In this document: positions 1 through 64,000 of the stretch, in pieces
Layout of the letters: every line of letters begins with the position of its first letter
Position numbering within the stretch: the stretch's first letter is position 1
NCBI GenBank assembly: GCA_037349105.1
Contig: JAYJMM010000111.1
Location: 1,116,001 to 1,180,000, forward strand
Source of the DNA: Limnomonas spitsbergensis
Taxonomy: Eukaryota; Chlorophyta; Chlorophyceae; Chlamydomonadales
DNA: 64,000 nucleotides
Direction of reading: 5' to 3'
Translations under genes and position numbers: made by a program
The notes under the pieces: generated by a model
Seen by the model: only the letters and a program-made list of their open reading frames with translations
What the model was told of the DNA's origin: nothing
Databases searched by the model: none

Positions 1-11
1 TCTGCCTGCCT

Positions 12-302
12 ATTCAGGCAGCACCTTCACCAGCGCCCTTAGCTGATTTTTGAGGAACTCACTGCCAGCGCCTTCATCCTCGTAGATCTGGATATCTTCA
101 CGATTTAAATTCAAATCCAGCTGCCATTCTGTCTAGGTGCCTGCTGAGGGTGCTGTTGTAGGTGTGTGGGCAGGCAGAACCTACAACAGCACCCTCAGCC
201 GATGTTCGAGGAGATTACCACCAGCGCCTTCATCCTGGCAGACCTGGATACCTCTAAATTTTCAAAATTCAAATCCAGCTGCCTGTCTGCCTGCCCATTC
301 AG
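12..302 (+). repeat. Two decayed copies of acceptor plus 5' part of exon 303-439
   Basis: The stretches at about 12-99 and 170-255 each resemble the exon that starts at 303: an attcag- or gcag-like acceptor context, then a match to the bases coding for [19 protein letters not shown] and the following AELEALG region. They sit about 130-155 bp apart and the shared sequence extends into the AT-rich tail (tcaaatccagctgcc). Both copies have lost the reading frame. They read as tandem duplicates of the intron-exon junction left inside the intron. Confidence 0.75.
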
Positions 303-2090
303 GCATTACCTACACCAGCACCCAGAACTGATGTTTGAGGAGAACACCACCAGCGCCTTCATCCGCGCTGAGCTGGAGGCGCTCGGGATCCCCTACAAGT
401 ACCCGTTCGCAAAGACGGGCATTTCGGCGACAATCGGGGGTGAGGCTTACCTGCTTAGAATTCAAATTCGAAGTATAGCAAGGCCCACACAAGTACCGTT
501 CATAGAGAAAGGAGCATCTGTGGCGATCAGGGATAAGGCTCCTGGACCTGGCTTTCGTCTTCCTTGCCTTTATTTGAATTCAAGCTCAAATAAACCGATT
601 GCTGTACAGATCGCACAGGTTTAGATTGCAAGTGAGTATCAGCCTGAGTGCGAGACTGACAGACTGAGGCTATGAGAGGGAGTGCTTGGACCAAATAGGC
701 TGCTGCTTCTGCTAAAAAACATGTTGGAATTTCGAGATGCTGTTCAATCAACAGCCTGGCGGCGGTGGGCTGACAGACGGCGGCCAATATGGGGTTGGGA
801 GGGGGGGGGGGGAGACATTTTTGGCGTTTCCCTTTCCCTCTTTGTCCTCCAGCAAAGCCTTGCCGTCATGTCACCCCTTCATTTCCCTCCTGCACTGAAA
901 TATATTATATACCGGTATGCTCTCTCCATCTAGGAAACACTTCTTGATTCGATTTCGAATTCAAATTCAAATGCCAGTTTTTCGACCCACAGGGGAGGGC
1001 TTGCCGCCCGGTCACCCCGTCATCGCCTTGCGTGCGGACATGGACGCCCTCCCCATCCAGGAACCTGGGGATGCAAGGGAGGGGGAGGGGGAGAGCGCTC
1101 ACGGCCTGCGCCGCGCACCTGTCAGCCTGTCTGCCGGAAAGATGCACGCCTGCGGTCACGATGCACACATGTCCATGCTGCTGGGTGCAGCCAGGTGAGA
1201 TTAGGGTTAGGGGTTGAGGATTGGGGCTTGGGGGATGAGGGTTTAGGATTCCTGATTCCTGATTGACCCCCGCCCCCCCCGTAAACCTATTACCCTAACA
1301 AACCATAAGCTCTCCCCAGGCTGCTTAATGCAATTGAGGTGAGTGCAGCGTCCGGCACAGCTAAACCCATGCCACATCTTGCCGTATTGTACCATATTGT
1401 GCTACCTCATTAGTACAATTAGGCTAGTCCTGTGCTGTATCGTGCCGTATTGTACCGTATTGTGCTACCTTGGTAGTGCAATCCAGCTAGGCCTGTGCTG
1501 TATCGTGCCGTATGGTGCCACCATGGAGCCCGGGCAGATGGCACTGCTCACACACATACCTCCATGAGGCCCATAATCCTCAACCCAGCAGGCTGCTCGA
1601 AGCAGCTGAGGCGCAGCTGCCAGGGTGCCCTGCACATTCACACTGTACAAAAACTTTAAGTCTTGATCATGAAACATGAAACCATCACGGTAACGGCGCG
1701 GATGTGGCTTCGGCCCAGGATGCGCTGTTTCCTTAACTCTCACGCCCCCAACGGGGCGTAGCTTTCTTTCCTTCTGAAACCGCCTTGCACACCTACAGGC
1801 TGCTCAAGGCCCGTGAGGCGCAGCTCCTCGGGCGCGTGGTGCTGATATTCCAACCGGCAGAGGAGGGTACTGGTGGGGCTAGGTGAGTGGCAGCAGAGGG
1901 GTTGTTGTTACGAAGTTGACGCAACCACCCACAGCCTCGTGCGAAAGGGCCAGGCAGAGCGAAGCGGGAGGAGACCAGACAACAAAAATCGAGACAGACA
2001 CCAGAGAACAAATAAAACCGAGGTCTTCACTCTCTGAACAGAGCTGCCAGTTACTGATGCTATTGTTTCAACCTGCTCCGGCTCCGGCTG

Positions 2091-2144
<54 letters not shown>

Positions 2145-5100
2145 TGGCTCTGGCTCTGGCTCTGGCTCCGGCTCATTTTCTGGCAGTGATGCTCCTGCTG
2201 TGGCAATGATGCCGATATTAATGCCTGCCCCCACACCTATGCATATCTTCAGGTACATGGTTGAGGAGGGTGCATTGCAAGGTGCTGAGGCGGTGGCTGG
2301 GATGCACGTGTGGCCCATGCTGCCTGGAGGTGAGATCAGGGTCAGGGTGAGAGGAGATTAGGAGGGGGGGCTGAATGTCAGGGTGGGGGAGAGGAGATTC
2401 GAGGGAGGGGGGGGCGAAGGGACGGGGGGCAGAATGTAAGCGTGGGGGAGAGGAGATTGGGGGAGGGGAGGGGGCGAAGGGAGGGGGGGCAAGGGGTTGC
2501 AAAAGGTGTAGTGGCTGGGATGCCCATGCTGCCTGGAGGTGAGACTAGGGGAGAATAGGGGCTACTAAGGGAGACTAGGGGAGAGATATGGAATCACAAC
2601 TTTCTTTCCTGCATGCGTCCTAATGGCGCTTCATCTCCATCAAGCATCACACTTTGGCTGCATCTTGCAATTTGATGTTTGCATTGAGAATTCCAAGTTA
2701 TGGTCGCATGTCTTTTCTACAGGCACCATTGCCACTCGAGTGGGCACCATCATGGCTGCATCAGACCGCTTCAGGTTGGTGGGATGAGGGTTTACGATCG
2801 CTTCAGGTTTGTGGGATGAGGGTTTACGATCGCTTCAGGTCTGTGGGATGAGGGTTGAGGATCGCTTCAAGTCCATGGGTTCAAAGTTGAGGCCCCGGAT
2901 TGATGTATGCTCCAGGTTTGTGGGATCAGAGGGTCACGGACCGCTTCAGGTCTGTGGGATCAGAGGGTCACGGACCGCTTCTGTTCCGTGGGATTAGGGT
3001 GGAGGGTTTAGGACCGTTTCACTTCCGTGGGTAAGGGGTGGTAAATAAGCGAGAAGGATACATGACTACATGACGGAAATGACAGGACTAGCGGATCCAA
3101 ATGCGAGGGATATGCATTCACAAGTGGTATTATTCAAGGCTGCGGTAGATCGCGATCCGCGATGAACAGGGCATCTTGGAGGGTGGGGACCGCGATGAAA
3201 CATGGAACCCTTCTCACTAAACTACAGACTGTAGACACCGCACCAGTCCCATGTGCAGCCCTCCTGGGGGTGGTTAAGGTTTAGGGTGCTAAGCTTTGAG
3301 TCCTAAACCCTAAATTCCCAACCCCAAAACAGCATCACTGCAACCCTCTCCTCCTAAACACACACATTTAGTAGGTGAAGGGTTTCACTTGTAAGGTCCT
3401 AACCATGCACTGTCGGGTGCTTGTATTTGGGGGTTCAAACCGGAGGTCCTAAACATGCAGGTGTGATTGGGGCCAAGAAGGCAGGGTTGCGAGTTATAAA
3501 CAGGAATGTGTCTGTTTTGGGTTCAGAATCTAGGGTTGAGTGATTGTGAAGTGTTATTAATATGTCGTATTTCTGTTTTCAGCTACAAGTCGAACTTCAG
3601 CTACCAAGTCCAGCTTCAGTAACCAAGCCCAACTTCAGCTACAAAATCCAACTTGAGCTACAAAGTCCAACTTCAGCAGGCCGCCCAGCAGCTGCCTAGG
3701 CCCGGATTAAGAACAAACCTGGACCGGCCTGTAACCTCCATGTGCGCCATGCTGCAGGTTTGTGTTGGAGGGTCGAGGTGGTCATGGAGCAATGCCCCAT
3801 TTGACAGCAGACCCGGTTGTAGCAGGAGCAGCTGTGGTCATGGCCCTACAGGTAATGGCAGGACAAGGCCTGGGAGGAGATATGGGGGGGGAGGGGGTGA
3901 ATGGGTGATATGGGGGGGGCAGCAGTGGTCTTGGTTCTACATGGAAGGTCAGGGAAGGGCCAGGGGGATATGGGGGGGGTGAGGTGAGAGGGGTTGATGG
4001 GAGCAGCTGTGGTCATGGCCCTGAAGGCGGTGACAGGGAAGTGCCAGGGAGGGGGGGGGGGGGGGGGGTGAGGTGAGAGGGGGAGGGGTAGAGGGAACCG
4101 CAGTGGTCATGGCCCTACAGGCGATGGCAGGGAAGGGGGGAGATATGGGGGGGAGGGGGAATAAAAAGAAATTACTGACCATGTCACGCCCTGGTCCACT
4201 CACCCCCACCCGCTGCCTCCATACGTACCCTAGTCTTCACTGGCAGTGACCATGCCGTCTGACAGTTCACACATGTCACATCTTTCACACTTCCCCCCAC
4301 TTCTGCCAGGCCCTGGTATCAAGAGAGACTTCTCCTACGGATGGCGCCGTAGTCACAGTGGCCAGGTGCGCAAATTGATGAAATGTGGTGCAGGGTTCCC
4401 TTGGTGCATGGTGCATGGTTCCCTTGGTGCATGGTGCATGGTGCATGGTTCCCTTGGTACATGGTGCATGGTTCATCGTTCCCTTGGTACATGGTGCATG
4501 GTTCCCTTGGGACATGGTGCATATTTCCCTTGGTACATGGTGCATGGTTCCCTTGGTACATGGTGCATATTTCCCTTGGTACATGGTGCATATTTCCCTC
4601 GGTGCATGGTGCATGTTTCCCTTGGTGCATGGTGCATGGTGCATGGTTCCCTTGGTGCATGGTGCATGGTTCCCTTGGTGCATGGTGCATGGTTCCCTTG
4701 GTGCATGGTGCATGGTGCATGGTTCCCTTGGTGCATGGTTCATGGTTCCCTTGGTGCATGGTGCATGGTTCCCTTGGTGCATGGTGCATGGTTCCCTTGG
4801 TGCATGGTGCATGGTGCATGGTTCCCTTGGTACATGGTGCATGGTTCATCGTTCCCTTGGTACATGGTGCATATTTCCCTCGGTGCATGGTGCATGGTTC
4901 CCTTGGTGCATAGTGCATGGTTCATGGTTCCCTTGGTGCATGGTGCATGTTTCCCTCGGTGCATGGTGCATGTTTCCCTCGGTGCATGGTGCATGTTTCC
5001 CTTGGTGCATGGTGCATGTTTCCCTCGGTGCATGGTGCATGGTTCCCTTGGTGCATGGTGCATGTTTCCCTCGGTGCTTGGTGCATGTTTCCCTCGGTGC

Positions 5101-8100
5101 ATGGTGCATGTTTCCCTCGGTGCATGGTGCATGTTTCCCTCGGTGCATGGTGCATGTTTCCCTCGGTGCATGGTGCATGTTTCCCTCGGTGCATGGTGCA
5201 TGGTTCCCTTGGTGCATGGTGCATGTTTCCCTCGGTGCATGGTGCATGGTTCCCTTGGTGCATGGTGCATGTTTCCCTCGGTGCATGGTGCATGGTTCCC
5301 TTGGTGCATGGTGCATGGTTCCCTTGGTGCATGGTGCATGTTTCCCTCGGTGCATGGTGCATGTTTCCCTCGGTGCATGGTGCATGTTTCCCTCGGTGCA
5401 TGGTGCATGGTTCCCTTGGTGCATGGTGCATGTTTCCCTCGGTGCATGGTGCATGGTTCCCTTGGTGCATGGTGCATGTTTCCCTCGGTGCATGGTGCAT
5501 GGTTCCCTCGGTGCATGGTGCATGTTTCCCTCGGTGCATGGTGCATGTTTCCCTCGGTGCATGGTGCATGGTTCCCTTGGTGCATGGTGCATGTTTCCCT
5601 CGGTGCATGGTGCATGGTTCCCTTGGTGCATGGTGCATGTTTCCCTTGGTGCCTGGTGCATGGTTTATGGTTCCATGGCTCGCAGCACCCTCTTCCTCCT
5701 TCTCCCCACAGGTTCAACATCATCTTTGTTCCAAGCTATGAAGTTCCCTCAACTCCCACGTTAGTAGCTTCCTATCTGATTTGTAGCGTACATGCACGGG
5801 AATAAGAACCCGCTCATGTGGCTAGCAGGCACCCAGATCTTTTTGTCCGACTGGCATGATCACTACCCATTATGGCATATCGTTACACAGTCCAATCAAA
5901 TGCAATGTCGTCCCCTCCTTCAGCGCGCAGGTTCACCACGGGTGACGGCATTTACGATCTGTTGAAATCCGGGCGGCACCGTTCCCTGGAGGGGTAGCTC
6001 TTTTTTTATTTGATGCCCTTTCTCCTGTAGGTTCAACACGGGCCCTGGCGCATCCAATGTCATCCCGGACTCCGTGGAGATCCAGGGGACTGTCCGCGCA
6101 CTGACCGAGGTGATTGGAGTTTAAGATCTAGGATGTAGATCTCAATGGACCAGGGTGGTTGGGGTTTAAGATCTGAGATCTAGACTTCAACGGACCAGGG
6201 TGGTTGTGGTTATAAGATCTGTCATCTAGACTTCAATGGACCAGGGTGGATGGGTTCAGGATGAAGGCTTGGAGTTGACTAAGGTAGTTAGTATCACAGA
6301 TATAGGATTTAAGGCCATTTTGGCCAAGGTGGTTAGCATGACAAACCTAGGATTTACAAGCACGCTGTTTTTTGAACCCTAAACTCGCTGCTCGCTCAAC
6401 ACTTAACACAGGCCACCTTTAAACGCCTGCATGTGCGATTGGAGGAGGTGGTGCGGGGGGTCTCCTCCTCCTATGGCTGTCGGGTGGATGCCGTGGATTG
6501 GAGCCCGACGCCCTACCCGCCAACAGTCAACGACGCCGACATGGTTAATTTGGTGAGTTGGGGCTGGTGGGGATTCGGGGTTTTATCTCTGCACCCTTGG
6601 TTACGTGGAAATGGTGGTTGCGTTTAGGGGGGGGGGGGCGGCACTAGCATCTTGCAACTGCTGAATCTTGGACCACATGGGGGAGGAAGATGATCTGGAG
6701 GGGACCCAATATTCTACCCACCTTGAGCCTGCCACACAGACTTGGTGGTGGGGGGGGGGGGCGGGGATGTGTGCGGGGGGATGTGTGTGGGGGGGTAGGG
6801 TTTTCAAATTGGTGGGTGAACCCTAGACCACACGGATCAGGTGTGAGGTGTGGTGAAGGTGTGGAGGGGGATCAGGTTGAGGGTTTAAAACACGCGCGAC
6901 TGGCAAATCCTATACCACGCAGATTTCGTAGATTTTGTGAGACGCGGACATAGGAGGGGGGGGCATAATTGACATCCTGGCCCACATGGTCAGCGTGGGT
7001 GTGGTTGAGTGGAGCCTGTTATCCAACCTGCCACTCTACCAACCGAGCGTCAAGCATGCTGACATGGTGGATGTGAGTTGAGGGAGCAGAAGGAGGGGGG
7101 GGGGGGGGGGAGGCAGCTGAGTGGGGGGAGTGGAGGGTGCTGGTTGTGGGGATGTGAGGGAGCTGCTGGGGGGGAAGTTGGGGGAGTGGACGGAGCTGAG
7201 TTGGGGGAGTGGACGGAGCTGAGTTGGGGGAGTGGACGGAGCTGAGTGGGGGGAGTGGACGGAGCTGAGTTGGGGGAGTGGACGGAGCTGAGTGGGGGGA
7301 GTGGACGGAGCTGAGTGGGGGGAGTGGACGGAGCTGAGTTGGGGGAGTGGACGGAGCTGAGTTGGGGGAGTGGACGGAGCTGAGTGGGGGGAGTGGACGG
7401 AGCTGAGTTGGGGGAGTGGACGGAGCTGAGTGGGGGGAGTGGACGGAGCTGAGTTGGGGGAGTGGACGGAGCTGAGTTGGGGGAGTGGACGGAGCTGAGT
7501 GGGGGGAGTGGACGGAGCTGAGTTGGGGGAGTGGACGGAGCTGAGTGGGGGGAGTGGACGGAGCTGAGTTGGGGGAGTGGACGGAGCTGAGTTGGGGGAG
7601 TGGACGGAGCTGAGTGGGGGGAGTGGACGGAGCTGAGTTGGGGGAGTGGACGGAGCTGAGTGGGGGGAGTGGACGGAGCTGAGTTGGGGGAGTGGACGGA
7701 GCTGAGTTGGGGGAGTGGACGGAGCTGAGTTGGGGGAGTGGACGGAGCTGAGTGGGGGGAGTGGACGGAGCTGAGTTGGGGGAGTGGACGGAGCTGAGTG
7801 GGGGGAGTGGACGGAGCTGAGTTGGGGGAGTGGACGGAGCTGAGTGGGGGGAGTGGACGGAGCTGAGTGGGGGGAGTGGACGGAGCTGAGTTGGGGGAGT
7901 GGACGGAGCTGAGTGGGGGGAGTGGACGGAGCTGAGTTGGGGGAGTGGACGGAGCTGAGTTGGGGGAGTGGACGGAGCTGAGTTGGGGGAGTGGACGGAG
8001 CTGAGTGGGGGGAGTGGACGGAGCTGAGTGGGGGGAGTGGACGGAGCTGAGTTGGGGGAGTGGACGGAGCTGAGTGGGGGGAGTGGACGGAGCTGAGTTG

Positions 8101-11100
8101 GGGGAGTGGACGGAGCTGAGTGGGGGGAGTGGACGGAGCTGAGTTGGGGGAGTGGACGGAGCTGAGTGGGGGGAGTGGACGGAGCTGAGTTGGGGGAGTG
8201 GACGGAGCTGAGTGGGGGGAGTGGACGGAGCTGAGTTGGGGGAGTGGACGGAGCTGAGTTGGGGGAGTGGACGGAGCTGAGTGGGGGGAGTGGACGGAGC
8301 TGAGTGGGGGGAGTGGACGGAGCTGAGTTGGGGGAGTGGACGGAGCTGAGTGGGGGGAGTGGACGGAGCTGAGTTGGGGGAGTGGACGGAGCTGAGTGGG
8401 GGGAGTGGACGGAGCTGAGTGGGGGGAGTGGACGGAGCTGAGTGGGGGGAGTGGACGGAGCTGAGTTGGGGGAGTGGACGGAGCTGAGTGGGGGGAGTGG
8501 ACGGAGCTGAGTGGGGGGAGTGGACGGAGCTGAGTGGGGGGAGTGGACGGAGCTGAGTGGGGGGAGTGGACGGAGCTGAGTGGGGGGAGTGGACGGAGCT
8601 GAGTGGGGGGAGTGGACGGAGCTGAGTGGGGGGAGTGGACGGAGCTGAGTGGGGGGAGTGGAGGGGCCAGTGTACTTCGGAAGCAATAAGGACGCTGAAC
8701 GGCTGCTCAGTGGAATTTAAAAGGCATTTTCTTGATGCTAGTATGTGTGAGTGGCAAACCCTGATAGCTCCAATGCAGCAACAACCCTAACTGACCCAGC
8801 CAAATCAATCGCCGATTCAAGGTGGCGGAGGTGGCTGCGGCAGCCGAGGCGTACGGGGTGACAGGTCCAGACGGCCGTCCGATTGCGTTGGTGATGCTGG
8901 ATGAGCCTTCAATGGCCGCTGAGGACTTTGCATTCTACGGCCAGAAGGTAAGGCAGAGTGTGGGCAAAATTGTGGACATAATAGGTGTGAATTTGATGAG
9001 AGATGATATGGTATGAACTGGTCAGGTGCGGACCTGTTGGATGTGCACCTTATTGTGGCCCAAAGTGTGGACCTGATGGGCAAGGGCGATGTGTTTCACA
9101 CTTCCAGCATGGTCATAATAGCCGTATCCTGCTGACGACGAGGGCCACAAGCGCACACCGGCTGTTTTTCGGTGTTTGCATCTCAGTTTCTCAAGGGCTT
9201 GGCGGCCAGCCCCACACTTTGTTAAGTCCAGGCAAAAGAATACCCATAACGCTGCAACTCTGCTTGTGTTTGTTAAGTTAATCCTCTTTGGCAAGTGTCG
9301 CTGTGTCGCATCCCCCTGTGCCCACTGCTGTAAGTGCCTTGGACCCCCTGAGATGAATAAACCCTAAACCCTATACTGTAAACCCTATACCATACACCAG
9401 AAACCGTGCTCTCTGCCTTCGGAATCCATATGCCCTGGGGCTCTCTGCCGGTGCTGCCATGCGGTCTGCTCGCGGCCCTGCGGGACCGCGGCTGAGAGAG
9501 AAGCCTCCAGATCTAGCAACAATAATAACCAGCAGTACGGCACACATCAGGGTTCACGGCTGCCGTACTCGGTCCCTGCGTAATCCATATGCCCGTGGGC
9601 GTGGATTTAAGGCACCACACGGTAAAGGCCAAGGCAGCAGGACCTCCCTGAGACCGCAAAAAAACTAAGGAAGTGTGATCTAACCAAGTGTGAACTATCC
9701 AAGTGTGATTTTGTGCGCCACCCACGCTACGCTTGATTAATGGACCGGCATTGCGGACGCTGATGCTGCGCCACATCGTTACAGAGCTGATTCATCCAGC
9801 CTAAATCCATGTCCAAAAGGGCAGGCAGAACAGGGAGTGTGTCTGCGATCTCTCGTCACTCCAGGGACATGGCCAAATTGTCAATATCTGTCATCTACCG
9901 GGATCTGGATGCTGCTCACCTATATTAGAGGCAGGCTCGCAGGCTCCGTCTGTTTCCTCTTCCTGGGGCACGTTTCAGGGTTGGCACCCAGTACCCTAAA
10001 CTCGAACTTGACCCGAAATCTCTAAAATCTGCATTTGGCTGCTTTCAAGTTCCGTCTGTCTTCTCCTTATTTCGGAGGGGTTGACCTCAGGGTTTGGGCC
10101 CTTTCCACAAAACACTTGACACTTCATTATTTACCCTTGACGTGGTGCTGATGTGGTGCTGACGTGGTGCTCACCTATTCCGTCTGTTTCTACTTCTTCG
10201 GAAGGGTTCTGATTTTCGGGTTTAACACCTATACCTTCATCGTAAACCCTTCACATTCATTGTAAGCTATTGAAGTGGCTGCATACAGAAGTATATGTTT
10301 TGTCTTTGTTCTTCCTCTTGGACAGGGTTTAGAGCTTGGACCCTTCCGTAAACCCTAAGTCATGAACAGCTAAACACCAAACCCTTCACCCTCAACTATT
10401 TGTGGATGCTGACAGGTTCCGTCAGTGTTCTCTTTCTTGGGTATCGGTGATGCCAAACTTGGAACCGACGCATCGCTTCACAACCCTCACTTCAGGTAAG
10501 GCAAAATAAAATATTGACACCGGTTGGGAGTGGAGGGTGGCCGATGGGTGGTCCCCGCTAGCTGGCAGCCCCAGGAGTATTTCAAAGTTGGCGGGTGAGG
10601 GTGTGTGGGTAAAGGTTTGTGTGGGTAGGTGTGGGTGGGTGAGTCAGTGTGGGTGGGTGGGTAGGTGTGGGCGGGTTAGCGTGTACAGGTGGGTGGGGTG
10701 GAGGGTGCGCATGAAATGGTGAGTGTGCGTGTAGGTGGGAGCGTGCATGTGTGGGTGGGTGGGTGTGAGTGGGAGGGAGCGTGCATGTGCATGTGCATGT
10801 GGGCAGAAGGGTGCATGTGTGTGTGGATGGAGGGTGGGGGGGGAGGGTCATGTGCATGTGGGTGGAGGGAGGGAGGGAGGGTGCGTGTGGGTGGGTGGGT
10901 GTGTGTGTGGGGGGGGGTCATGTGCATGTAGGTGGAGGGAGGGAGGGTGCGTGTGGGTGGGTGGGTGTGCATATGGATCAGGGGTGTGCGTGGGTGGATG
11001 TGGGTGGGGGGGGTCATGTGCATGTGGGTGGAGGGAGGGAGGGAGGGTGCGTGTGGGTGGGTGGGTGTGCATATGGATCAGGGGTGTGGGTGGGTGGATG

Positions 11101-11957
11101 TGGGTGGGGGGGGAGGGTCATGTGCATGTGGGTGGGTGGGTGGAGGGCGGGTGTGCGTGTGGGTGAAGGTTGTAGGTGGGTGGAAGATGTGTGTGAGTGG
11201 GTGGGTGGGTGGTGGGTACATGTGCGTATGGGTTGTGGGTGGGTGGGTGTGACTGTCATTTATCGAAGCGCAATGCCTTACGGCTATTATAGCCTTTACG
11301 GGATAAATGGACGCCAGCTGGCTTTGGGAGGCGCTGTTGAAGGTTTAGGCTGAGGTTGTATGACTCATATACCGATACCGATACCGATACCGATACCGAT
11401 ACCGATAGGTTGAATCGTAATTATTCACATGGATTCGTGAATCCCTTAAAAGGATGGAGGGCCGTCAGATGGCCCCTGGGTACAGCTATTCAAGGTAAAG
11501 GCTAAGGTTACCGTATATACTTATATGACAGGTTGAATCTTCCTTGCTTATGAATCCTGTACAGTCATCGGCCATCAGCCAAAATGGGCGGCATCCTTGA
11601 TCCACGCACTCGTTTGTGTATCTAATCATTTATAAGGAATTAAGAAAGGTACGCCCCTTGAGGGGCGTGAGAGTTAAGGAAACTCGGTTTATTTATTTAT
11701 ATCACCCATCACAGGATGGACGACCGCCAGATGCCCCTGGGTGCAGCGGTTAAAGGTTTAGGCTTAGGTTAAGGAAACTCAGTTGATTTATTTCACCTAT
11801 CACCTTTCACAGGATGGACGACCGCCAGATGCCCCTGGGTGCAGCGGTGCATGCAGCCACGGCTATACGCTTCCTCCAAGCACGGTCCATGTCCCTTAAT
11901 GAAGAGGCGAGCACCAGACCACGTGAGGAGGAGCCTGAGGCACATCAGGAGCTGTGA
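303..11957 (+). CDS. M20-family amidohydrolase (IAA-amino acid hydrolase ILR1-like), 12 exons, 5' end missing
   Basis: Metal-dependent amidase that would release the acid from N-acyl amino acids; the ILR1/hippurate hydrolase group is the best fit, substrate unproven. Exons: 303-439, 993-1194, 1799-1882, 2253-2329, 2723-2774, 3758-3851, 4310-4365, 6031-6109, 6412-6552, 8822-8947, 10416-10495, 11813-11957 (stop TGA 11955-11957). Every junction is GT-AG and every phase agrees, giving about 424 residues. Visible motifs: [10 protein letters not shown] near the N-terminus, [13 protein letters not shown], the metal-site HACGHDAH (Cys codon 1151-1153), the Glu pair in [51 protein letters not shown] and the late His in [16 protein letters not shown]. 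All expected metal ligands are present. Family length is about 440, so only a short N-terminus or signal/transit exon lies upstream of the window. Introns are stuffed with exon-edge copies and minisatellites. Gene identity is firm; physiological role is inferred. Confidence 0.9.
1319..1634 (+). repeat. Decayed copies of the start of exon 1799-1882
   Basis: At 1588-1634 the sequence caggctgctcgaagcagctg, followed by aggcgcagctgcc, closely matches the true junction at 1797 onward. A shorter match lies at 1317-1338 and is followed by a gtgagt donor-like string. Between them lies the GCCGTAT-rich dispersed repeat. Inferred to be duplicates of the acceptor side of the exon. Confidence 0.65.
1371..1525. 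repeat. Dispersed repeat family B (GCCGTATYGTGC-rich), copy 1
   Basis: Two to three degenerate units of a sequence built on gccgtatcgtgc, a gctacctTGGTAGTgcaat core and ggctaGgcctgtgc. Other copies in the window: 18752-18860, 29866-30170 (about five units) and, in the opposite orientation, 35225-35345, 35475-35510 and 35625-35745. A more diverged relative is at 20495-20650. No coding capacity seen. Confidence 0.7.
2074..2172. repeat. (GGCTCC)n hexanucleotide microsatellite
   Basis: About 16 near-perfect hexamers in the intron between exons 1799-1882 and 2253-2329, shading into ggctct at the right end. It opens a Glu-Pro reading frame on the minus strand, but the position inside a well supported intron argues against coding. 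Confidence 0.9.
2330..2560 (+). repeat. Donor-side duplicates of exon 2253-2329 and derived G-rich tandem repeat
   Basis: Just after the donor (gtgagatcaggg) the intron repeats gagaggagatt-type units at about 2349, 2390 and 2449. At 2496-2545 a decayed copy of the exon end appears: gtggctgggatgc, then ccatgctgcctggaggtgag, i.e. the same coding end and the same donor as the true junction at 2329/2330. Confidence 0.7.
2796..3040 (+). repeat. About six copies of exon end plus donor from exon 2723-2774
   Basis: The true exon ends ...gaccgcttcag|gttggtggg. The downstream intron repeats gatcgcttcaggtttgtggg or gaccgcttcaggtctgtggg at about 2798, 2828, 2860, 2938, 2975 and 3013, with growing divergence. 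Each of the better copies retains an AG/GT donor-like context. These are exon-edge duplicates, not functional exons, since no acceptor precedes each copy. Confidence 0.75.
3676..3735 (-). mobile_element. Partial SINE/MITE-like family A element, reverse orientation
   Basis: The reverse complement reads like the middle of the family A consensus (ggccggtccaggtttg, then a ctgggcggcct block). It lies 25 bp before the acceptor of exon 3758-3851. See the family description at 60240-60420. Confidence 0.5.
3910..4135 (+). repeat. Three decayed copies of the 3' end of exon 3758-3851
   Basis: The exon ends with bases coding [12 protein letters not shown] followed by gtaatggcagg. Copies at about 3913-3955, 3996-4038 and 4095-4135 repeat gcagctgtggtcatggccct and a following g-cgatggcaggga. 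Two of three keep the ATGGCC core. They lie between G-rich tracts and have lost a usable frame. Confidence 0.75.
4395..5672. repeat. 23-bp minisatellite (ttccctYggtgcatggtgcatg)
   Basis: About 55 units of a 23-bp repeat whose consensus alternates ttcccttggtgcatggtgca and ttccctcggtgcatggtgca, with occasional 9-bp extensions (an extra gtgcatggt). The C/T and final G/T variants are interspersed rather than blocked, showing ongoing homogenisation. It fills the intron after exon 4310-4365. Because 23 is not a multiple of three, all frames stay open and give long spurious ORFs on both strands. Confidence 0.95.
5703..5960 (+). repeat. Two decayed copies of the start of exon 6031-6109
   Basis: The true junction is tcctgtag|gttcaacacgggccctgg. 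At 5708 an acceptor-like ccacag is followed by gttcaacatcatc, and at 5930 gcgcag is followed by gttcaccacgggtgacggc. Both keep the acceptor AG and the first bases of the exon but diverge afterwards. Confidence 0.55.
6110..6260. repeat. Short tandem repeat after exon 6031-6109
   Basis: Three units of about 55 bp containing caatggaccagggtggttg and taagatct. The first begins close to the donor (gtgattggagtttaagatct), so it may be donor-side DNA that was tandemly copied. Confidence 0.7.
6960..7092 (+). repeat. Decayed copy of the 3' half of exon 6412-6552 with its donor
   Basis: Bases 6985-7080 align with the exon bases coding [21 protein letters not shown]: for example gttgagtggagcc, then ccaaccgagcgtcaagcatg, then ctgacatggtggatgtgagttg. 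The true exon end is gccgacatggttaatttg|gtgagttgg. The donor string gtgagttg is intact in the copy. The protein frame is damaged by indels. Confidence 0.8.
7174..8662. repeat. 23-bp minisatellite (ggagctgagtKggggg agtggac)
   Basis: About 65 near-identical 23-bp units, differing mainly by T or G at one position (gagttggggg versus gagtgggggg). The first unit lies shortly after the duplicated donor copy gtgagttgagggagcag, from which it could derive (inference). It opens a 555-codon minus-strand frame with a 23-residue period (three units), which is an artefact of repeat length. Confidence 0.95.
9940..10345 (+). repeat. Four decayed copies of the start of exon 10416-10495
   Basis: The exon starts gttccgtcagtgttctcttt, then cttgggtatcgg. 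Related strings occur at 9944 (ctccgtctgtttcctcttcc, then tggggcacg), 10048 (ttccgtctgtcttctcctta), 10169 (ttccgtctgtttctacttct) and 10298 (ttttgtctttgttcttcctc, then ttggac). Spacing is roughly 100-130 bp. Each is followed by a gggtt/ggttt-type stretch, so the duplicated block includes more than the exon edge. Confidence 0.65.
10570..11262. repeat. GT/GGGTG-rich low-complexity tract
   Basis: Imperfect repeats of gtgggtgggtgtg, gtgcatgtgggtggagggag and gtgcatatggatcaggggtg fill the intron after exon 10416-10495. Frames open on both strands are artefacts of composition. Confidence 0.85.
11300..11755 (+). repeat. Three decayed copies of the start of the last exon (11813-11957)
   Basis: True junction: cttcacag|gatggacgaccgccagatgc, then ccctgggtgcagcggtgcat. 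Copies: 11303-11350 (aatggacgccagctggcttt), 11451-11500 (aggatggagggccgtcagat, then ggcccctgggtacag) and 11711-11760 (acaggatggacgaccgccag, then atgcccctgggtgcagcggt). The third is identical to the real exon for over 30 bp, including the acceptor. After each copy comes aaggtttaggct-like sequence, so the duplicated unit also carries a telomere-like heptamer. Confidence 0.9.
11369..11406. repeat. (ATACCG)n microsatellite
   Basis: Six perfect hexamers within the ladder of last-exon copies. Confidence 0.9.
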
Positions 11958-19549: not shown

Positions 19550-22500
19550 TCAAGGGCTCTGCAAGCTTCTCACTGCGACGCCCATGCGGCGGATCCCCTC
19601 CCGGATCTGATCCTCAGGCAGGCCCCCGAATGTGATCCTCATAAGCGGGCAGGCCCCACCGTCATTCTCTTGCGGCGCCGCGCCCTTGACCCAGAACAGC
19701 CGGCCCGGCACGGCCACCACGCCCTGCTCCACAAACGCATCCGCGAGCTGCTCGTTGAAATCCGCATCGGCGCCTGCAGCGGTGAATTCCCCAAATTTCA
19801 ATGGTGTGAGACGCTCAGAATTTGTTCTGATCCCGCGAAGGAATATTTGAAATTTGATTCACAAATCAATATGAGGGAACCGAAATATTTAATTTTCCCT
19901 TCTAGTGGTGTCAAGTCCTCATACCCATGTACCCGGTGGTAGCCCACCTAGTGCTACGGCCGAACGGGTGACTTCCTTAATCCACGCCCCAGGGTGTATC
20001 GACCAAAATCGAAACCCGTGTTCTGGGGAGGCTTCTGCCGTACTGCTGGTTGGAGGTCAGATGCACATGGGCAGCGGGCCCTCATGCCCGCCCGTTATTT
20101 ATTTATAACGGTTGGGGTGTGTGTTTCATTTGCCATCGCCTCTCACCTGCCAAGCGCAACCACATGAACATCCCGGCCATGGGCACGAGGATGTGCGAGA
20201 GATCTCCCATATGCTCTGCGACGGCAGCAACGGCCGCTTCGGCACGCGAGCGGTACAGCACCTGTTTAAGGATCAAACATTTGCATGACGGGGTCAATAG
20301 GTTCCATCAGGAATGCGGGTGTTCTTACTCATATAGAAGGAGAGGTCTTAGGGGGCGATGAAAGGCACATCAGCTGAATCCTACACCCAATTGGGGTGAG
20401 GGTTTAGGCAATTTGCAACTCAAGGGGGTGCCTAGCTTTGTGCTGGCAACTTGGCTGATTAGGCAAGCTGTAACTCCGGCCAGGGACACAAGATACAGAA
20501 TATCGTAATACGATGTGGTACGATACGGGTTTGTTTTGCCAATACGGGACATGTGCGTGGATTGCCAGTTGGTACACCGTAGTGGACCGTATCGATAATA
20601 TAAGATATAGTACGGGATTTTTGCCAAAACGGCCCGTATCCTGTGTCCCTCACTCCGGCAGCGTACCTTAACCTAGCCCTGTAGTCTTGCACTATCATTG
20701 TCCTTGATATTGTTATTTTTTGACAAAAGTTGACGCAACCACCCACAGCCTTTTGTTGCACGTAAGCTGTTTGATGACACGGGCTTCTTGCACTATCATT
20801 GTCCTTGATATTGTTATTTTTTGACAAAAGTTGACGCAACCACCCACAGCCTTTTGTTGCACGTAAGCTGTTTGATGACACGGGCTTCTTGCACTATCAT
20901 TGTCCTTGATATTGTTATTTTTTGATAAAGTTGACGCAACCACCCACAGCCTTTTGTTGCACGTAAGCTGTTTGATGACACGGGCTTCTTGCGCCTCTGG
21001 GGCAGTTCACCATGCCTTGCAAAAACAATCGCATTCGGAGATGCGAACAGAGCCTAAAGAAGCCTGACGCTAAAATAATCTGGGAATACTAATGAGACCA
21101 TGAAATGCACTAGTGGCATTGCCCCAGGCAGTACCTGTGGGGCTTACGGGTTCATGGTTTAGGGTTGATAATCTAGGTTTCGGGGTTTATTAGTACCTGT
21201 GTCTCCTTAACAAAGTCCTCGAATCGAACTTCTCCCCAGCTGCGGATCAGGCCCTCCAGCAGCACCTGCAAGGCAACAACAGGATAGGTATGAACAAATG
21301 TGGAGGTTAATCAGCCTACCAGGGTTTTAACCATATGCTTGATGTACAAACAAGTGTGAAGGCCAATCAGTTGGGGCCAAAACCCCAAGCACTATGTATG
21401 AACAAGTGGTATGCCCAATCGGTCCAGTCATCAATCTGAACCCAAAACCCAAGAAATCAGTGGGACACCGCTAGAAGGCGCCAAGGGACCCCATTTGCCA
21501 AGCTGCCGGGGGTAAAGGGTTCCATAGTTGGGGGTAACGACGGGGTTGGGGCTTGGGGTGGAATAAGTCAGGGCACACCCTCCACCCTAAACCCTCTACC
21601 CTACCCATCCTTCACCCCGCACCATGTACCCTCAATCTCCACCCCTACACAAACACTTTGTGTAATCCCAAAGGCGATAAATAGGGCCATCCGACACCAG
21701 TAGACCCCTGGGAATTCCCCTGGGTCACCCAGCCTAGGCTTTCGTTTATAATGGACAGGCTGCAGGGTTTAGGGTTTAGGCTTTCGTTTACCATGGACGG
21801 GCTGCAGGGTTTAGGGTTTAGGTTTTTGTTTACCATGGACGGGCTGCAGGGTTTAGGGTTTAGGTTTTTGTTTACCATGGACGGGCTGCAGGGTTTAGGG
21901 TTTAGGTTTATGTTTACCATGGACAGGCTGCAGGGTTAAGGGTTTAGGTTTTTGTTTACCATGCATAGACTGCAGAGTTAAGGGTTTAGGTTTTTGTTTA
22001 CCATGCATAGACTGCAGGGTTTAGGGTTCAGGTTTTTGTTTACCATGGACAGGCTGCAGGGTTTAGGGTCAAGGTTTAGGTTTACCATGGACATGCTGCA
22101 GGGTTTAGGGTTCAGGATTTTGTTTACCATGGACATGCTGCAGGGTTTAGGGTTCAGGATTTTGTTTACCATGGACAGGCTGCAGGGTTTAGGGTTTAGT
22201 TTTTTGTTTACCATGCATAGATTGCAGGGTATAGGGTTTAGGTTTTTGTTTACCATGGACAGGCTGCAGGGTCCAACACAGTTGCCCACGACGGCCATGG
22301 ACAACTTTGCAGCCAGCTTAGGTGCACATGTCACCCAGCCTATACGGTACCTGCATGTGATGGTTAAGGATTACAGTTGCGTTTCTGGAAGGCATAACAT
22401 GCAAGCAGCTTAGGCGTACACGACACCCAGCCTACACCATGCCTACATGTCAGGGTTCAAGGTGAAGGCCCAGGTTTCAGGGTCTGGGCTCGTTTTCAGG

Positions 22501-59245: not shown

Positions 59246-59264
59246 CCTCATGAGCAAATACAGG

Positions 59265-59954
59265 TGTGCATGACACCTGGCAGATGTTGCTGCTGGGAAC
59301 CGCCTAGACAGCATCAAATAAACTCAAAGCAGCATGGACCTTGATCACGTAACCTCTAGCCCTACACCGCACTGACCTAATGAGCAAGTCTATTTGTGTG
59401 TCATGTCCAGCTCGTACTGCAGCTGGACTCCGCCAAAACAGTATGAAGCGTTACCTTGGGCAACGTGGGCCCTGAATCCAATACCCGTAACACTAAAACG
59501 TATCTATCTGATGAACCCATACACACATGCTTGAAGCCCGGCAGATGCTGCATCTGGGCACCAACAAGTCATGATACAATCCCCTGATACAATGTTGCTA
59601 TTGGCAGTATTGAACCCTGACCCTGCAAATTTAAGCCAAACCCGCGTTCCCCCTACTGAGCAAATACACCTGTGTGTGACGCCCGGCAGATGCTGCATCT
59701 GGGCACCAACAAGACAGCATCAAATGCTGCTCTTGTTAGTATTGTACCTAGACCTTGAAAACTTAACTTAAACCCACGTTCCCCTGCTGAGCAAATACAC
59801 ATGTGTGTGATGCCCTTGCAGATGCTGCATCTGGGAACCAACAAGTCAAGATACAATGTTACTCTTGGTAGTATTGAACCTAGACCCTGCAATTTTACCC
59901 CAAACCCACATATTCCACTGCTGAGCAAATAAACGTGTGCGTGACGCCTGGCAG
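59265..59954 (+). repeat. Ladder of four decayed copies of acceptor plus start of exon 59955-60089
   Basis: True junction: cctggcag|atgctgccgctgggcaccgc + caagacagcgtcgaac. Copies near 59277 (cctggcagatgttgctgctg + ggaaccgcctagacagcatc), 59538 (cccggcagatgctgcatctg + ggcaccaacaagtc), 59678 (cccggcagatgctgcatctg + ggcaccaacaagacagcatc) and 59815 (ccttgcagatgctgcatctg + ggaaccaacaagtc). Spacing is about 140 bp from the second copy on, and each copy also repeats the preceding ctgagcaaatacacctgtgt. Confidence 0.92.
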
Positions 59955-62900
59955 ATGCTGCCGCTGGGCACCGCCAAGACAGCGTCGAACGTAACTTTGG
60001 GCAGCATTGACGACATTACCAAGTCCTTGGTGGAGGCCTTCTCGCACGCGATCCCCGGTGAAGATGCGTACGGAATCAGCAACAAAAAGGTGTGCAACTA
60101 TGGGGACAAACCCTGCCCGCTGCCTAGGATAGAGTGAGTCAGCTACAATTCAGGTACATCACCAAGTCCCTGGTGAAAACGCGATAGGGACACACAGCAA
60201 GGTATGTATGGATAGGAAACATAGCTTTTATTTTGTGTAAAGGGTGCTTCAGCTATAAATCAGCTACATCACGGCCTGTAGCTGAGGGTGCCTAGTGCTG
60301 CAAGCCTTGTTGCTTGGGCCGGCAACTGTAGGCTGGCCCATGTTTGGTCCTCGTGGGCCCAATGGTGGCCTAGTGGCTGCCCTGTGGCCTGACTAAAGAA
60401 CTCTGGTGCGCACTAGCAGAAGCAAGATAGGCCTGGTGGCTGCCCTGTGGCCTGACTAAGGAGTGTGGTGCGCACTAGCAGAAGCAAGATAGGCCTGGTG
60501 GCTGCCCTGTGGCCTGACTAAGGAGTGTGGTGCGCACTAGCAGAAGCAGGATAGGTCTGGTGGCTGCCCTGTGGCCTGACTAAGGAGTGTGGTGCGCACT
60601 AGCAGAAGCAAGATAGGCCTGGTGGCTGCCCTGTGGCCTGACTATGGAGTGTGGTGCGCACTAGCAGAAGCATGATAGGCCTGGTGGCTGCCCTGTGGCC
60701 TGACTAAGGAGTCTGGTGCGCACTAGCAGAAGCATGATAGGCCTGGTGGCTGCCCTGTGGCCTGACTAAAGAACTCTGGTGCGCACTAGCAGAAGCAAGA
60801 TAGGCCTGGTGGCTGCCCTGTGGCCTGACTAAGGAGTGTGGTGCGCACTAGCAGAAGCAAGATAGGCCTGGTGGCTGCCCTGTGGCCTGACTAAGGAGTC
60901 TGGTGCGCACTAGCAGAAGCAGGATAGGTCTGGTGGCTGCCCTGTTGCCTGACTAAGGAGTGTGGTGCGCACTAGCAGAAGCAAGATAGGCCTGGTGGCT
61001 GCCCTGTGGCCTGACTAAGGAGTGTGGTGCGCACTAGCAGAAGCTGGATGCCGCTACATACCGCTATAACACAACATGTACTGGTGTGCAGCCTGGTAGG
61101 CTGGCATGATTCATACGGATGTGATTTGGTGCTGCCAAGATCCTTGGCGATACAAATTATGGGTTTGAATTGCACCTGTGTCTGTTTTAATGTTCTAGAG
61201 GATCCTTCAGTCATCCATGACTCCATTTTGGAGACTTTCTAAAAGCTGACTGTTACCATGAATTCGAGGCGAAGCCTCGGTGGGGGGGACTGTGCACCGC
61301 CTGCAGTATCTTGAACTCCCTGAAACATGAACCTTTTCGCACAAAAGTAGAAGCACACTCGCATTTTAGGAAGCCTCTTTGGGCAAAACCGGCAGGTTTG
61401 CAGCGGATCTTGGAGCTGCAGCGGAAGTTCTTGCACCAAAGCTGAATCCCGCCCCCCAAAATACAGCCAAACCCTTTCACCAAACCTTGATCATCCCATC
61501 TTTGATTCTGTATCCATTTCCCCCCCTACCCATGTCATCGTGTCACCAAACCAGGGGTGCACCTGCACCAACCCTCTTGGCAGTACCGTAGAACGCCAGA
61601 GACTTCGGTCATAATTAATTAATTAGTGGCGTGCGCGAACATGGGTGCGCGCTAATGATAATTCAAAAATCGCCGGTGCGCGGAGTGTCAGTCAGGTGCC
61701 CAAAGAACTATTTTGGGGGCGCGCGCTACGATTAAAAACAGAAGAAACAAAAAAACTGCGCGCTCGCGCGCGATTGTTTGATTTGACATCCGTCAAGTGA
61801 TCGTTACGCCAGTCCCTGTAGCGAAGCTCGATTCTGGAGGCAGAGACGGGTGCTGACGACTGCTGACGTTTCGTGGTCCCAACAGCCACACTTTTCCTGA
61901 GGCCAGGAACCGGCGGAGGAGGAGGGTGACGACAATGCTGAGTATTGCTGACCGTGTACTATCCTTGCTAGCATAAAACGAGGGTTTTCACTGTGTTTTA
62001 CTGCACTGGCTGAAAGTGCTTCGCAAACGTTTTTTTTTTTTTTTTTAACTGATGCGCGATGTCAAATTAAATTTCCTGCTGCGCAACGTTATTAGTAAAG
62101 CAACTTGCGTGGCAGCAGGATTTAGTGGCGACTCAGTGGTGACTCAGTGGCGACTCAGGGGTGACTCAATGGTCCTACCGTAGGTTCTTCAGTAGGATTT
62201 CAATGGCTCGTGAAATGGGGTTTTATCAACGATTCAGGTGATTTGAGACACAAGTTGGAAATAATTATTTAATTTTTAGAGACGTCGCCATATGTTAGTT
62301 AAGTAACGTTAATTTAAATTAAAATGTTGCCGCTGCGCGGCCGTTTTTAAAATTCTTTCTGGGGTGCGTGATGGAAACAAAAACTGTTTTGGGGGGTGCG
62401 CGTACCCTTAGGCGTTTTACGGTAAGGTTTACACAAGCAAGCGACAAACCAACGAGGAATTAATCGTGTACACAATTCAGGACATAATACCAGTATAAAC
62501 CAACCATTCACATATCGGTACACGGCCGGCACGGGGGCATGGGGGCACGGGTGTAACACGGGGGCATTGGTGGCTTCATGAAGTTGTCGTTGTGTACGTT
62601 GCTCAAGGTTCTTCTTCCAACATAAGCTTTTTTTTAATCGGATGAGTCATACTGTCTGTCACCATGCAGCTACACTACAGACGACAGCTATCTTGGCTGG
62701 CTTCAGCAATCCCAGCTGTTTGTTCCAGTAGCCATTAGCCGGCCCAGGTTTGTCTCCCATCGGCCCAGGTTTGTCTCCCATCGGCCCAGGTTTGTCCCCC
62801 ATCGGCCCAGTCGTGGCTGAAAACCGGCCTGCATAAGTTGATCTGGCACGCACAAAAACTGTCGTGGATTTGTGTGTAGGGAATGCCTTGCCGTGATTGT

Positions 62901-63215
62901 AGAGACAATTGTTCATTTACTAGTCGCTCCTCCAGCAACCAACAAAACCCTGTGGTATGAGAATGCTCAGAAGTAACAGACAGGACTGTTTGCTTGCCCG
63001 CAGGTCCCCATCCGCACTCGCATTTCATTCCTCAAAATAACATGTTTACAAATGCCTCCCACTTGCAGGTCCCTCCTCCAGCAAACCTGACGGTGGCTGT
63101 ACAGATCAGAGATGGCTATGTCGCCCCCACCGCTGCCGTGATGGCCTCGTCCACCGCACCCGTCATGAGCGTGAGAGCGTCGGACTCAAAAGAGCAGGAG
63201 ATTGACAAGATCAAG
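59955..63215 (+). CDS. Unrecognised gene, two exons assembled, both ends open
   Basis: Exons 59955-60089 and 63069-63215, both phase 0 with GT-AG edges. The first codes MLPLGTAKTASNVTLGSIDD then ITKSLVEAFSHAIPGEDAY; the second PPPANLTVAVQIRDGYVAPT + AAVMASSTAPVMS and ends KEQEIDKIK. The ATG at 59955 follows an acceptor directly and need not be the start. No family recognised; the Ala/Val/Thr composition and NLTVAVQ strand-like segment fit an extracellular or luminal domain, which is a guess. Exon status is supported by acceptor copies before the first exon and donor copies after the second. The 3-kb intron holds a family A element and its expanded tail, plus an element E copy; further exons within it or past the window are likely. 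Confidence 0.55.
60240..60420 (+). mobile_element. SINE/MITE-like family A element, reference copy
   Basis: Family consensus by eye: ggtgcttcagctacaattca + gctacatcacggcctg, agctggtgcagcaagccctg + ctgcttgggccactggc, ggtcaaggtttggtccccat + cggcccagtggtggc, gcccagcggcctgccaaagg + tgatctggtgcgcactaaaa. Length is about 180-210 bp, no ORF, no obvious terminal inverted repeat or poly(A), and found on both strands. About 17 copies were seen in the window. Classification as SINE or MITE is open. Confidence 0.8.
60366..61045. repeat. 62-bp satellite grown from the tail of a family A element
   Basis: Eleven units of ggcctggtggctgccctgtg + gcctgactaaggagtgtggt + gcgcactagcagaagcaaga. The first unit is the 3' part of the family A element at 60240-60420, so the element end was tandemly amplified in place. 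Confidence 0.95.
61600..62420. mobile_element. Element E, copy 2
   Basis: Matches 25050-26285: ataattaattaattagtggc, aaaaatcgccggtgcgcgga + gtgtcag, ctattttgggggcgcgcg, tgtttgatttgacatccgtc, and later aactgatgcgcgatgtcaaa + ttaaatt. A shorter repeat of the same type follows at 62280-62405 (ccgctgcgcggccgttttt, gttttggggggtgcgcg). Includes a gtggcgactcagtggtgact repeat near 62125-62170. No protein coded. Confidence 0.6.
62660..62870 (+). mobile_element. SINE/MITE-like family A element with internal triplication
   Basis: ggcttcagcaatcccagctg, then catcggcccaggtttgtctc three times in tandem, agtcgtggctgaaaaccggc and end ctggcacgcacaaaaac. Confidence 0.75.
62995..63025 (+). repeat. Decayed copy of the start of exon 63069-63215
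   Basis: gcccgcaggtccccatccgc resembles cacttgcaggtccctcctcc at the true junction; only about 15 bases are shared. Confidence 0.4.
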
Positions 63216-63760
63216 GTGAGGGCCTCTAGATGTGAAGATAGGCTAACACAGACAAGTGCATAGACCCACAAGCCAATAGCCAAGAGGCGTTGAATATGGT
63301 ATAAATCGAGGTGAGGGCTGTTTGGCATGGAAAAGGGTATTTGCAGTCCAAGAAGAAAATAGGGGATGGCAACGCTCTCCCCCTGCATCCGTCATGGCCG
63401 TCACGGCAGCCGACTTAAAAGAGCAGGAGATTGACAAAATCAAGGTGAGGGCCTCTTAGTGTGAAAATAGGCGCACGCAGACGAGTGCATAGACCCACAG
63501 TAACTGCTGGAGAGGTGTTTTATACCATAGCCATAAATGCCGCCTCTGTCATGGCTGTGATGGCTTCGGAATGGAATGTGCGGGAGATCAACATAATCAA
63601 GGTGAGGGCCGTGTGGCATAAGGAAGCGTATGTGCTGACACAGAAAAAATAGAAAACGGCAGCGTACTCCCCTGCATCCGTCGTGGCCGTGATGGCAGCC
63701 GCATTGAAAGGGTAGGAGGTTGACAAAATCCAGGTGAGGGCCGCGTGGAGTGAAAAAAGG
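63216..63760 (+). repeat. Three decayed copies of the 3' end plus donor of exon 63069-63215
   Basis: True edge: aaagagcaggagattgacaa + gatcaag|gtgagggcctc. Copies end at 63444 (aaagagcaggagattgacaa + aatcaag|gtgagggcctc), 63602 (gtgcgggagatcaacataat + caag|gtgagggccg) and 63734 (gggtaggaggttgacaaaat + ccag|gtgagggccg). Upstream parts repeat tgcatccgtcatggccgt, matching the exon bases coding APVMSV. The donor is perfect in all three. Confidence 0.93.
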
Positions 63761-64000
63761 CATGCATAGACCCATGGGGAAATGACCATGCAAGATCAAC
63801 ACGAGGGTCTCACAGCAAAAACATATTTACGTGCAAACCCAGTGGGGAGCGAGCTTGGCACTGGGTATCGCTTCCATCTGAGGCCCTGCATCTGTCCCAG
63901 GCACGTCATAACTCCGCGGTGTTGCTGCTCCTTCACAATCCCACTGCTCCAGGTTTTGCACACGTGGGCTAGGCAAGGCTTTGCTTTCCCAGGGGTGACA

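Follow-up and report, generated by a model that had tools for sequence, protein, structure and literature searches.

Ladders of exon-edge copies in the introns of the green alga Limnomonas spitsbergensis and their probable origin in tandem duplication near splice sites

Exon-edge copies in adjoining introns

Introns of the chlamydomonadalean green alga Limnomonas spitsbergensis carry copies of the edge of the adjoining exon, arranged as ladders that we studied in a stretch of 64,000 nucleotides (assembly GCA_037349105.1, C111:1116001-1180000, hereafter the window) and in genes lying on many contigs of the same genome. These exon-edge ladders are real: the copies are in direct orientation, have tandem spacing, decay with distance and exceed at the edges what placement models predict. 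We think it somewhat probable, with considerable room for doubt, that they are ordinary DNA-level tandem duplications whose breakpoints arise preferentially no more than about 40 bp from a splice site, and splice junctions look like duplication hot zones, with a 1.6- to 2-fold excess. The genome comprises 260,226,709 bases in 124 contigs, and contig C1 starts with CCCTAAA telomere repeats.

The copies were sought in a test set of 94 introns (median 481 bp) from 14 genes, namely 13 chaperonin genes located elsewhere in the genome and the M20 peptidase gene of the window (gene 1). A genome search for the chaperonin family PF00118 gave 72 matches, 68 of which lie in the 13 genes used, the other four being left out. 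Exons were predicted with a gene finder of our own, trained on the chaperonin genes and gene 1 (donor GTGAG after exonic AG, acceptor CAG before exonic G), which recovered 55-59 of the 68 Pfam matches in frame unaided; the matches then guided the exon edges. Weakly scored exons were dropped in chaining, and the exclusion of introns shorter than 150 bp or with a flanking exon shorter than 25 bp reduced the 94 introns to 89; in one of the 94 the acceptor was placed a base too early, at 11812 instead of 11813. Conserved exons flank the introns studied.

Edge 25-mers taken from the exonic side had a copy in their own intron at 33 of 178 edges (12/89 donors and 21/89 acceptors), and no reverse-complement copy was found there at any of the 178. 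For 25-mers taken 50 bp deeper in the exon, an intron copy was present in 4 of 121 cases. Chance matching by composition, estimated from other-gene introns at the same offset, amounted to 0-1.1%, and on this ground low-complexity chance matches were rejected as the source of the copies. Introners, mobile intron-making elements whose similar sequence is dispersed in the introns of many genes, were rejected as well, since the edge 25-mers matched introns of other genes within the 14-gene set in 9 of 3244 trials. At least one edge copy was present in 11 of the 14 genes, which agrees with the statement of an earlier, sequence-only reading of the window that nearly every gene is affected, but that wording is too strong when 33 of 178 edges are concerned. 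The same holds for its description of introns as filled with such copies, since detected duplications of any kind account for 32.3% of intron bases. The confinement of the copies to the intronic side, which had also been pointed out, is probably trivial, as a copy inside the exon would change the protein.

In the window itself, 25 exonic bases at each of 21 proposed edges were aligned with the 700 bp next to them in the direction of the intron, distant window stretches supplying the p values (11813 was tested one base off, at 11812, and beside 51540 the gene finder's 51552 was also used). A significant copy (p<=0.0111) was obtained at 15 of the 21 sites, that is 303, 1799, 10416, 11813, 59955, 28747, 51540, 50074, 2329, 2774, 3851, 63215, 27135, 22254 and 51447, and the evidence was clear at 2329, 3851, 11813, 59955, 63215, 27135 and 22254, as well as, at the junction, at 2774. 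The other six missed this level, namely 39724 (p=0.028), 6031 (0.047), 36268 (0.085), 6552 (0.13), 15811 (0.27) and 27260 (0.92), with weaker junction copies at 39724 and 15811 (scores 29 and 26, carrying no p value). As a control, 16.5% of random window 25-mers had a neighbouring copy with a score of at least 24, compared with 12 of the 21 chosen sites.

Position, age and survival of the duplications

The main alternative is that tandem duplication is uniform along introns and that edge events are merely recognised for longer, owing to the conserved exon copy and to slowly evolving intron ends; we regard it as unlikely, although far from negligible. In its favour, raw interior segments had a neighbouring copy at least as often as edges (2881 of 11193 against 33 of 178). 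This raw interior rate is high because arrays dominate it, and when arrays were cut to two copies it amounted to 0.08-0.09 against 0.185 at edges. Exon conservation could by itself double the visibility of edges, and the intronic bases beside the edge were examined because exon conservation gives them no protection. Intron bases 0-50 bp inside the edge were copied at a rate of 0.235 versus 0.139 at 120-220 bp (raw, 46 introns of at least 500 bp), and at 0.197 versus 0.068 with arrays cut to two copies (44 introns of at least 500 bp); the bootstrap intervals of these ratios, for a fixed search space, were 1.2-2.5 and 1.95-4.6, respectively.

A lag scan identified 83 duplication events, distributed over 51 of the 94 introns. 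Of these events, 36 span an edge by at least 10 exonic bases, whereas 22.4 (sd 3.5) were expected when each unit was placed at random within its own intron. Much of the edge spanning is thus a matter of geometry, because a unit of about 100 bp will often lie across an edge when the intron measures about 480 bp, as uniform duplication predicts. The ratio of real to expected spanning events (1.61) varied between 1.55 and 1.68 when each of the 11 genes with events was left out in turn, was 1.49-1.55 when one member of each paralog pair was kept, and remained at 1.52 without the low-complexity filter, for which reason a bias of the detection filter was rejected as the cause of the excess. By copy identity, spanning events numbered 10/28 versus 7.0 (sd 2.0) expected at 95% or more, 15/30 versus 8.5 at 88-95%, 10/22 versus 6.3 at 80-88% and 1/3 versus 0.5 below that. 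The 47 events that do not span an edge by this measure, which speak against the idea that introns consist chiefly of adjoining-edge copies, also lie near an edge, at 0.30 of the distance possible (0.5 being uniform), and the youngest of them are no farther from edges than the older ones (0.23, n=18, versus 0.39 and 0.31), at variance with uniform birth followed by selective survival at edges.

The youngest class is the best one for telling birth from survival. Sixteen of its 28 events touch or span a splice site where 7.9 were expected (P 2e-4), and 21 of the 28 lie within 36 bp of one where 11.2 were expected (P 5e-5); without the window gene the count was 15 of 20 young events versus 8.1 (P 0.0008), and two other cut-offs tried gave P 0.0013 and 0.0007. 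These figures bear out the proposal that recurrent local tandem duplication across junctions exceeds the rate for segments away from them.

Simulations were based on a model of uniform duplication, deletion and substitution with conserved exons; its rates were chosen by hand so that the number of events came out alike, and the outcome is therefore a fit and not a measurement. An early run with four settings gave edge ratios of 0.93-1.19, and the full uniform-birth runs a mean ratio of 1.09-1.25 with a closeness of 0.48 (real values, 1.61 and 0.30), the real ratio being reached in 6 of 240. When intron ends evolved more slowly the ratio rose to 1.35 and the closeness was 0.44, with 9 of 48 runs reaching the real ratio, a point for uniform duplication; when events were in addition barred from the last 60 bp, the ratio was 0.68 and the closeness 0.43, and none of 48 runs reached the real ratio. 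Across these conserved-exon, slow-end and protected-end models the closeness thus stayed at 0.43-0.48, and the real value was reached in 0/240, 0/48, 0/48 and 0/40 runs. The fraction of young events within 36 bp was 0.45 (sd 0.09) in the unbiased simulation, and none of 40 runs attained the real 21/28. The objection that copies are visible only through exon conservation therefore explains part of the pattern but not all of it. Among five settings with biased birth, the closest fit was obtained when 45-60% of duplications started within 40 bp of a splice site, which gave a closeness of 0.35-0.31, a young fraction within 36 bp of 0.69-0.73 and an edge-spanning share of 0.31-0.32 versus 0.43 in the real data.

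Three chaperonin paralog pairs on different contigs (L025/L026, L027/L033 and L034/L035), 78-92% identical over the aligned pieces and with introns mostly unalignable, served as an internal clock for intron turnover. Windows of orthologous intron positions above the 95% control level made up 0.43 at the acceptor end, 0.29 at the donor end and 0.10 in the middle (21 introns), as expected if ends are retained longer under uniform duplication. Copies were present at both paralogous edges in 5 cases, at one in 8 and at none in 33 (Fisher p 0.005). Such joint occurrence above chance would suit selection, by which junction duplications are retained since splice-like copies or G- or C-rich motifs aid or regulate splicing. 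At no fewer than three of the five shared edges, as judged by eye, the copies group with their own exon and the paralog edges therefore duplicated separately, instead of being kept.

Selection could also account for the splice-like character of the copies and for motifs that are specific to intron end and strand. GT occurs within 2 bases of the expected place in 16 of 19 donor copies and AG in 16 of 23 acceptor copies, against a chance level that we estimate at about 27%, and decoys as strong as the true site were found in 7/16 and 5/16 cases. Retained GT and AG are, however, expected from inheritance alone, the mean decoy scores are well below those of true sites (1.68 versus 3.44 and 0.27 versus 3.04), and the copies decay with distance, so that we consider this explanation quite improbable. 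The decay, claimed already from the sequence alone, was evident as a fall in copy identity with distance (rho -0.47, 45 copies of at least 28 bp, p 0.001); among the 16 edges with at least two copies in the 14-gene set, for instance L024 with copies at 121, 240, 360, 480 and 619 bp, the nearest copy was better than the farthest in 9, worse in 5 and equal in 2. Divergence among the rungs makes an assembly error an unlikely source of the copies.

The median period of edge events is 116 bp, versus 59 bp for other events, and unit length at edges shows no bias toward multiples of three (9/11/10). In whole-exon duplication, the source of mutually exclusive exons, the copy holds an entire exon with both splice sites; this was rejected, as the matched exonic stretch measures between 10 and 72 bases (on average 29 for donors, 41 for acceptors) and the farthest reach of an edge event into the exon is 95 bases. 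A further explanation is that exon edges were copied back into introns from spliced or unspliced RNA. It would fit the observation that 31 of 37 copies reach the splice site and that similarity ends there in 21 and runs on into the intron in 10. We nevertheless hold it to be very improbable: decay alone gave 0.42 abrupt ends at the splice site in simulated DNA duplications, 16 of the 21 abrupt copies still have AG or GT at the boundary, and beyond the splice site the 37 copies showed no convincing match to the neighbouring exon (scores 7-18). Templating by mRNA was rejected on the last ground, as a spliced template would give such a match. Copying that starts exactly at the splice site was likewise attributed mostly to decay, though with an unexplained excess in the best-preserved copies.

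Several points weigh against birth of the duplications near splice sites. Intron ends are better conserved than middles between paralogs, so that longer survival contributes to the excess; no birth-bias setting reached the real edge-spanning share (0.32 at most versus 0.43); the youngest class, when counted by at least 10 exonic bases (10/28 versus 7.0, sd 2.0), is not significantly enriched, as uniform duplication would have it; and for nine of the 28 young events the match covers just 18-26 bases, which makes their age uncertain. Among copies of at least 90% exonic identity that reach the splice site, 9 of 14 stop there, compared with 96 of 463 in simulation. Plain substitution does not account for this excess, which is probably due to small intronic insertions and deletions, a process that the simulation did not include. 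A weaker exon set from the gene finder had fewer copies (3/35 edges versus 2/911 controls), and 94 introns in 14 genes with three paralog pairs among them are a small sample. In favour of such birth, edges with duplications have G-richer donor flanks (0.41 versus 0.34, p 0.037) and G-poorer acceptor flanks (0.15 versus 0.19, p 0.003), although these values come from a series of 12 uncorrected comparisons.

Intron 5′ ends are G-rich in general (skew +0.44) and 3′ ends C-rich (-0.44), and the telomere-like heptamers reported at intron ends in the window were seen (1195-1240, 2767-2870 and 15683-15800). Of 86 introns, 18 have a CCCTAAA-type heptamer within their last 100 bp and 2 within their first 100 bp (p 0.0004 taken alone); for the TTTAGGG type the corresponding numbers are 3 and 11 (p 0.057 taken alone). 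In shuffled acceptor flanks, the top 7-mer had a mean count of 9 and a maximum of 13, and the real top 7-mer, ACCCTAA, had 11; composition alone can make some 7-mer equally common, which counts against a special role of heptamer polarity. Genome-wide, CAGGTGAGT has TTTAGGG within the next 33 bases in 77 instances and CCCTAAA in 37, corresponding to about 36 and 15 places, by eye, when arrays are counted once.

In the course of events that we propose, a tandem duplication as in minisatellites would arise with its breakpoint preferentially within about 40 bp of a splice site. A unit straddling the edge would be tolerated, the original splice site presumably staying in use and the new copy falling inside the intron, where it would drift; further rounds would then yield a ladder, with rungs decaying with distance, and a longer intron. 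The bias at birth may derive from the strand-asymmetric intron ends, G-rich after donors and C-rich before acceptors, with GGGTTTA/CCCTAAA. Sequence of this kind is prone to slippage, R-loops or G-quadruplex-linked breaks, and slippage or break repair at the intron ends is, in our view, the mechanism that is most likely at work. A bolder version, put forward tentatively and with more doubt than trust, is that about half of intronic tandem duplications have, from birth, a breakpoint no farther than about 40 bp from a splice site, the telomere-like, strand-asymmetric ends provoking breaks or slippage in transcription or replication, and that introns grow from their edges, minting decoys as they do so. 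The median length of introns with an event is 682 bp versus 370 bp without one, which is not proof of cause, since longer introns offer more room.

Relation to described systems

The view that no described system has this pattern was too strong, as related phenomena have been published. According to the accessible text of a survey of 31 plants and algae, intronic tandem repeats are commoner near intron-exon junctions, especially in C. reinhardtii and V. carteri, and repeat density is highest in introns; the units, recorded by relative position, measured 1-50 bp (PMC3887541). These are related algae with repeats enriched toward both intron ends, and the same end enrichment was found here (non-spanning events at 0.30 of the possible distance versus 0.48 simulated). 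The unit size of 1-50 bp differs from that observed here (medians of 116 bp at edges and 59 bp elsewhere), and the survey text available to us does not describe units containing exon sequence (PMC3887541).

In the RdRp gene of potato, a tandem duplication across an intron-exon boundary, with a unit made of the 3′ part of an intron and the 5′ part of the next exon, became a new intron, as far as the accessible part of that paper tells (PMC4974935). Direct adjacent copies of joined exon and intron sequence are also what we observed (36/83 events spanning, 0/178 edges with a reverse-complement copy), but the potato case concerns one gene and a new intron, whereas here many genes are involved and existing introns appear to be lengthened, as far as can be judged from sequence. 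The Rogers model of intron gain by duplication of exonic AGGT segments, as told in the same available text (PMC4974935), and Drosophila cases of AGGT-type gain, similarly known to us in part (PMC2891723), share with the ladders a local tandem duplication at or near splice motifs that shapes introns; there the exon is duplicated and a new intron made, while here the introns pre-exist. In the stwintrons of Lipomyces, the accessible text states, a donor element is thought to have been duplicated inside an existing intron, which is attributed to double-strand break repair (PMC7138796); the place of duplication is shared, but units of 4-7 nt and functional nested introns contrast with units of about 100 bp and decaying copies.

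No paper naming ladders of exon-edge copies was among the matches listed in the open-licence literature for the terms used. End-biased repeats and junction-crossing duplication are each known; what the present data add is the density of the copies, ladders anchored on exons, and evidence that birth is biased. Little is known of how introns lengthen, and it is mostly to explain rare cases of intron gain that tandem duplication is called upon. Common junction-straddling duplications that can be dated against the conserved exon and are biased in position would make intron growth measurable. They would also provide decoy splice sites in a natural gradation of ages, on which spliceosome choice could be tested, and they are a warning to gene finders that the exon edge is often repeated nearby in such genomes.

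Genes 1 and 2 of the window and further observations

Gene 1 extends from 303 to 11957 on the plus strand and encodes an IAA-amino acid hydrolase-type M20 peptidase (the joined protein matches Pfam M20 at 3.8e-31), whose closest match is in Chlamydomonas eustigma (65% identity), followed by other chlamydomonadalean algae. Its model consists of ten phase-consistent exons obtained by direct reading (303-439, the first visible in the window, 993-1194, 1799-1882, 2253-2329, 2723-2774, 3758-3851, 4310-4365, 6031-6109, 6412-6552 and 8822-8947) and of two further ones from gene finding or similarity, the exon 10416-10495, predicted by the gene finder, and the last exon, 11813-11957, read to the stop codon by similarity to P0001. 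With a view to dating the ladders, a further copy of exon 993-1194 was sought across the genome, which gave no match beyond the exon itself.

At 13-265 the acceptor and exon start of 303 recur twice in decayed form, the copied exon beginning near 18 (by eye) in one case and near 179 in the other; the exon 25-mer copy is at a distance of 124 (p=0.0007) and a junction copy at about 300. The start of the 1799 exon recurs, decayed and with AG before it, at 1590-1640 (copy start 1592, distance 207, p=0.0033), and the 2329 exon end with donor GTGAGA is copied at 2514-2550 (exon copy score 34, distance 209). The exon end at 2774 adjoins a ladder of 32- and 34-bp units at 2767-2994, with the exon end (C)GCTTCAG and a donor-like GT (TRF 2767-2869 and 2909-2994), with the telomere-like GGGTTTA in the first two units and a junction score of 42 at 2774. 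Three copies of the 3851 exon end are found at 3915-4140, with boundaries about 91, 175 and 269 bp downstream (TRF 3988-4159). The copy claimed upstream of 6031 gave p=0.047, and those claimed downstream of 6552 were not significant (p=0.13). The start of exon 10416-10495 is copied about 367 bp upstream (p=0.0015), and the last acceptor and exon start are copied 98 bp upstream within 11673-11812, with 37 of 37 exonic bases identical (TRF 11673-11848, period 98). Two 23-bp arrays in gene 1 introns, at 4386-5665 and 7176-8662 (about 53 and 65 copies), are not edge copies; they make up most of the length of their two introns and are far longer than the edge ladders there.

Gene 2, on the minus strand at 19660-30366, is a partial model from the gene finder of a class I/II aminotransferase, with exons at 30224-30366, 28622-28747, 27135-27260, 24460-24636, 21197-21265, 20147-20261 and 19660-19773; the Pfam match (PF00155, 1e-8) was obtained on the joined exons without 21197-21265. 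On the same strand, the 27135 exon end and donor are copied at 26985-27025 (distance 135, p=0.0007), and a 42-bp array carrying the telomere-like CCCTAAA adjoins the 22254 edge at 21735-22272 (TRF 12.8 copies, exon score 38, junction score 58). On the plus strand, a 132-bp triplicate detected by TRF crosses the 59955 acceptor and exon start at 59587-59983 (p=0.0007, junction score 43), and the end of the exon predicted by the gene finder at 63105-63215 is copied about 229 bp downstream (exon copy score 45). Pfam scans of raw three-frame window stretches, with one chosen strand per region, gave few matches because the exons are short.

Elsewhere in the genome, C114:5204357-5204952 contains eleven occurrences of the donor consensus CAGGTGAGT at 44-bp steps, some of them skipped, most followed by GATTAGGGTTTAGGG, a possible donor ladder, and donor-like arrays with CCCTAAA are present at C39:1962981-1963693 and C75:657226-659605. 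A 211-codon open frame recurs at 47, 2532, 5016 and 7502 in L010:47-8134, a tandem repeat of about 2485 bp, and L009 (C3:500001-510000) and L019 (C90:300001-310000) consist to 99.8% and 100% of tandem repeat by TRF, with a GC content of 36% and 65%. Dense long open frames on both strands, several with high third-position GC, fill L014:1-10000 (C30:300001-310000), which gives the impression of integrated large-DNA-virus sequence.

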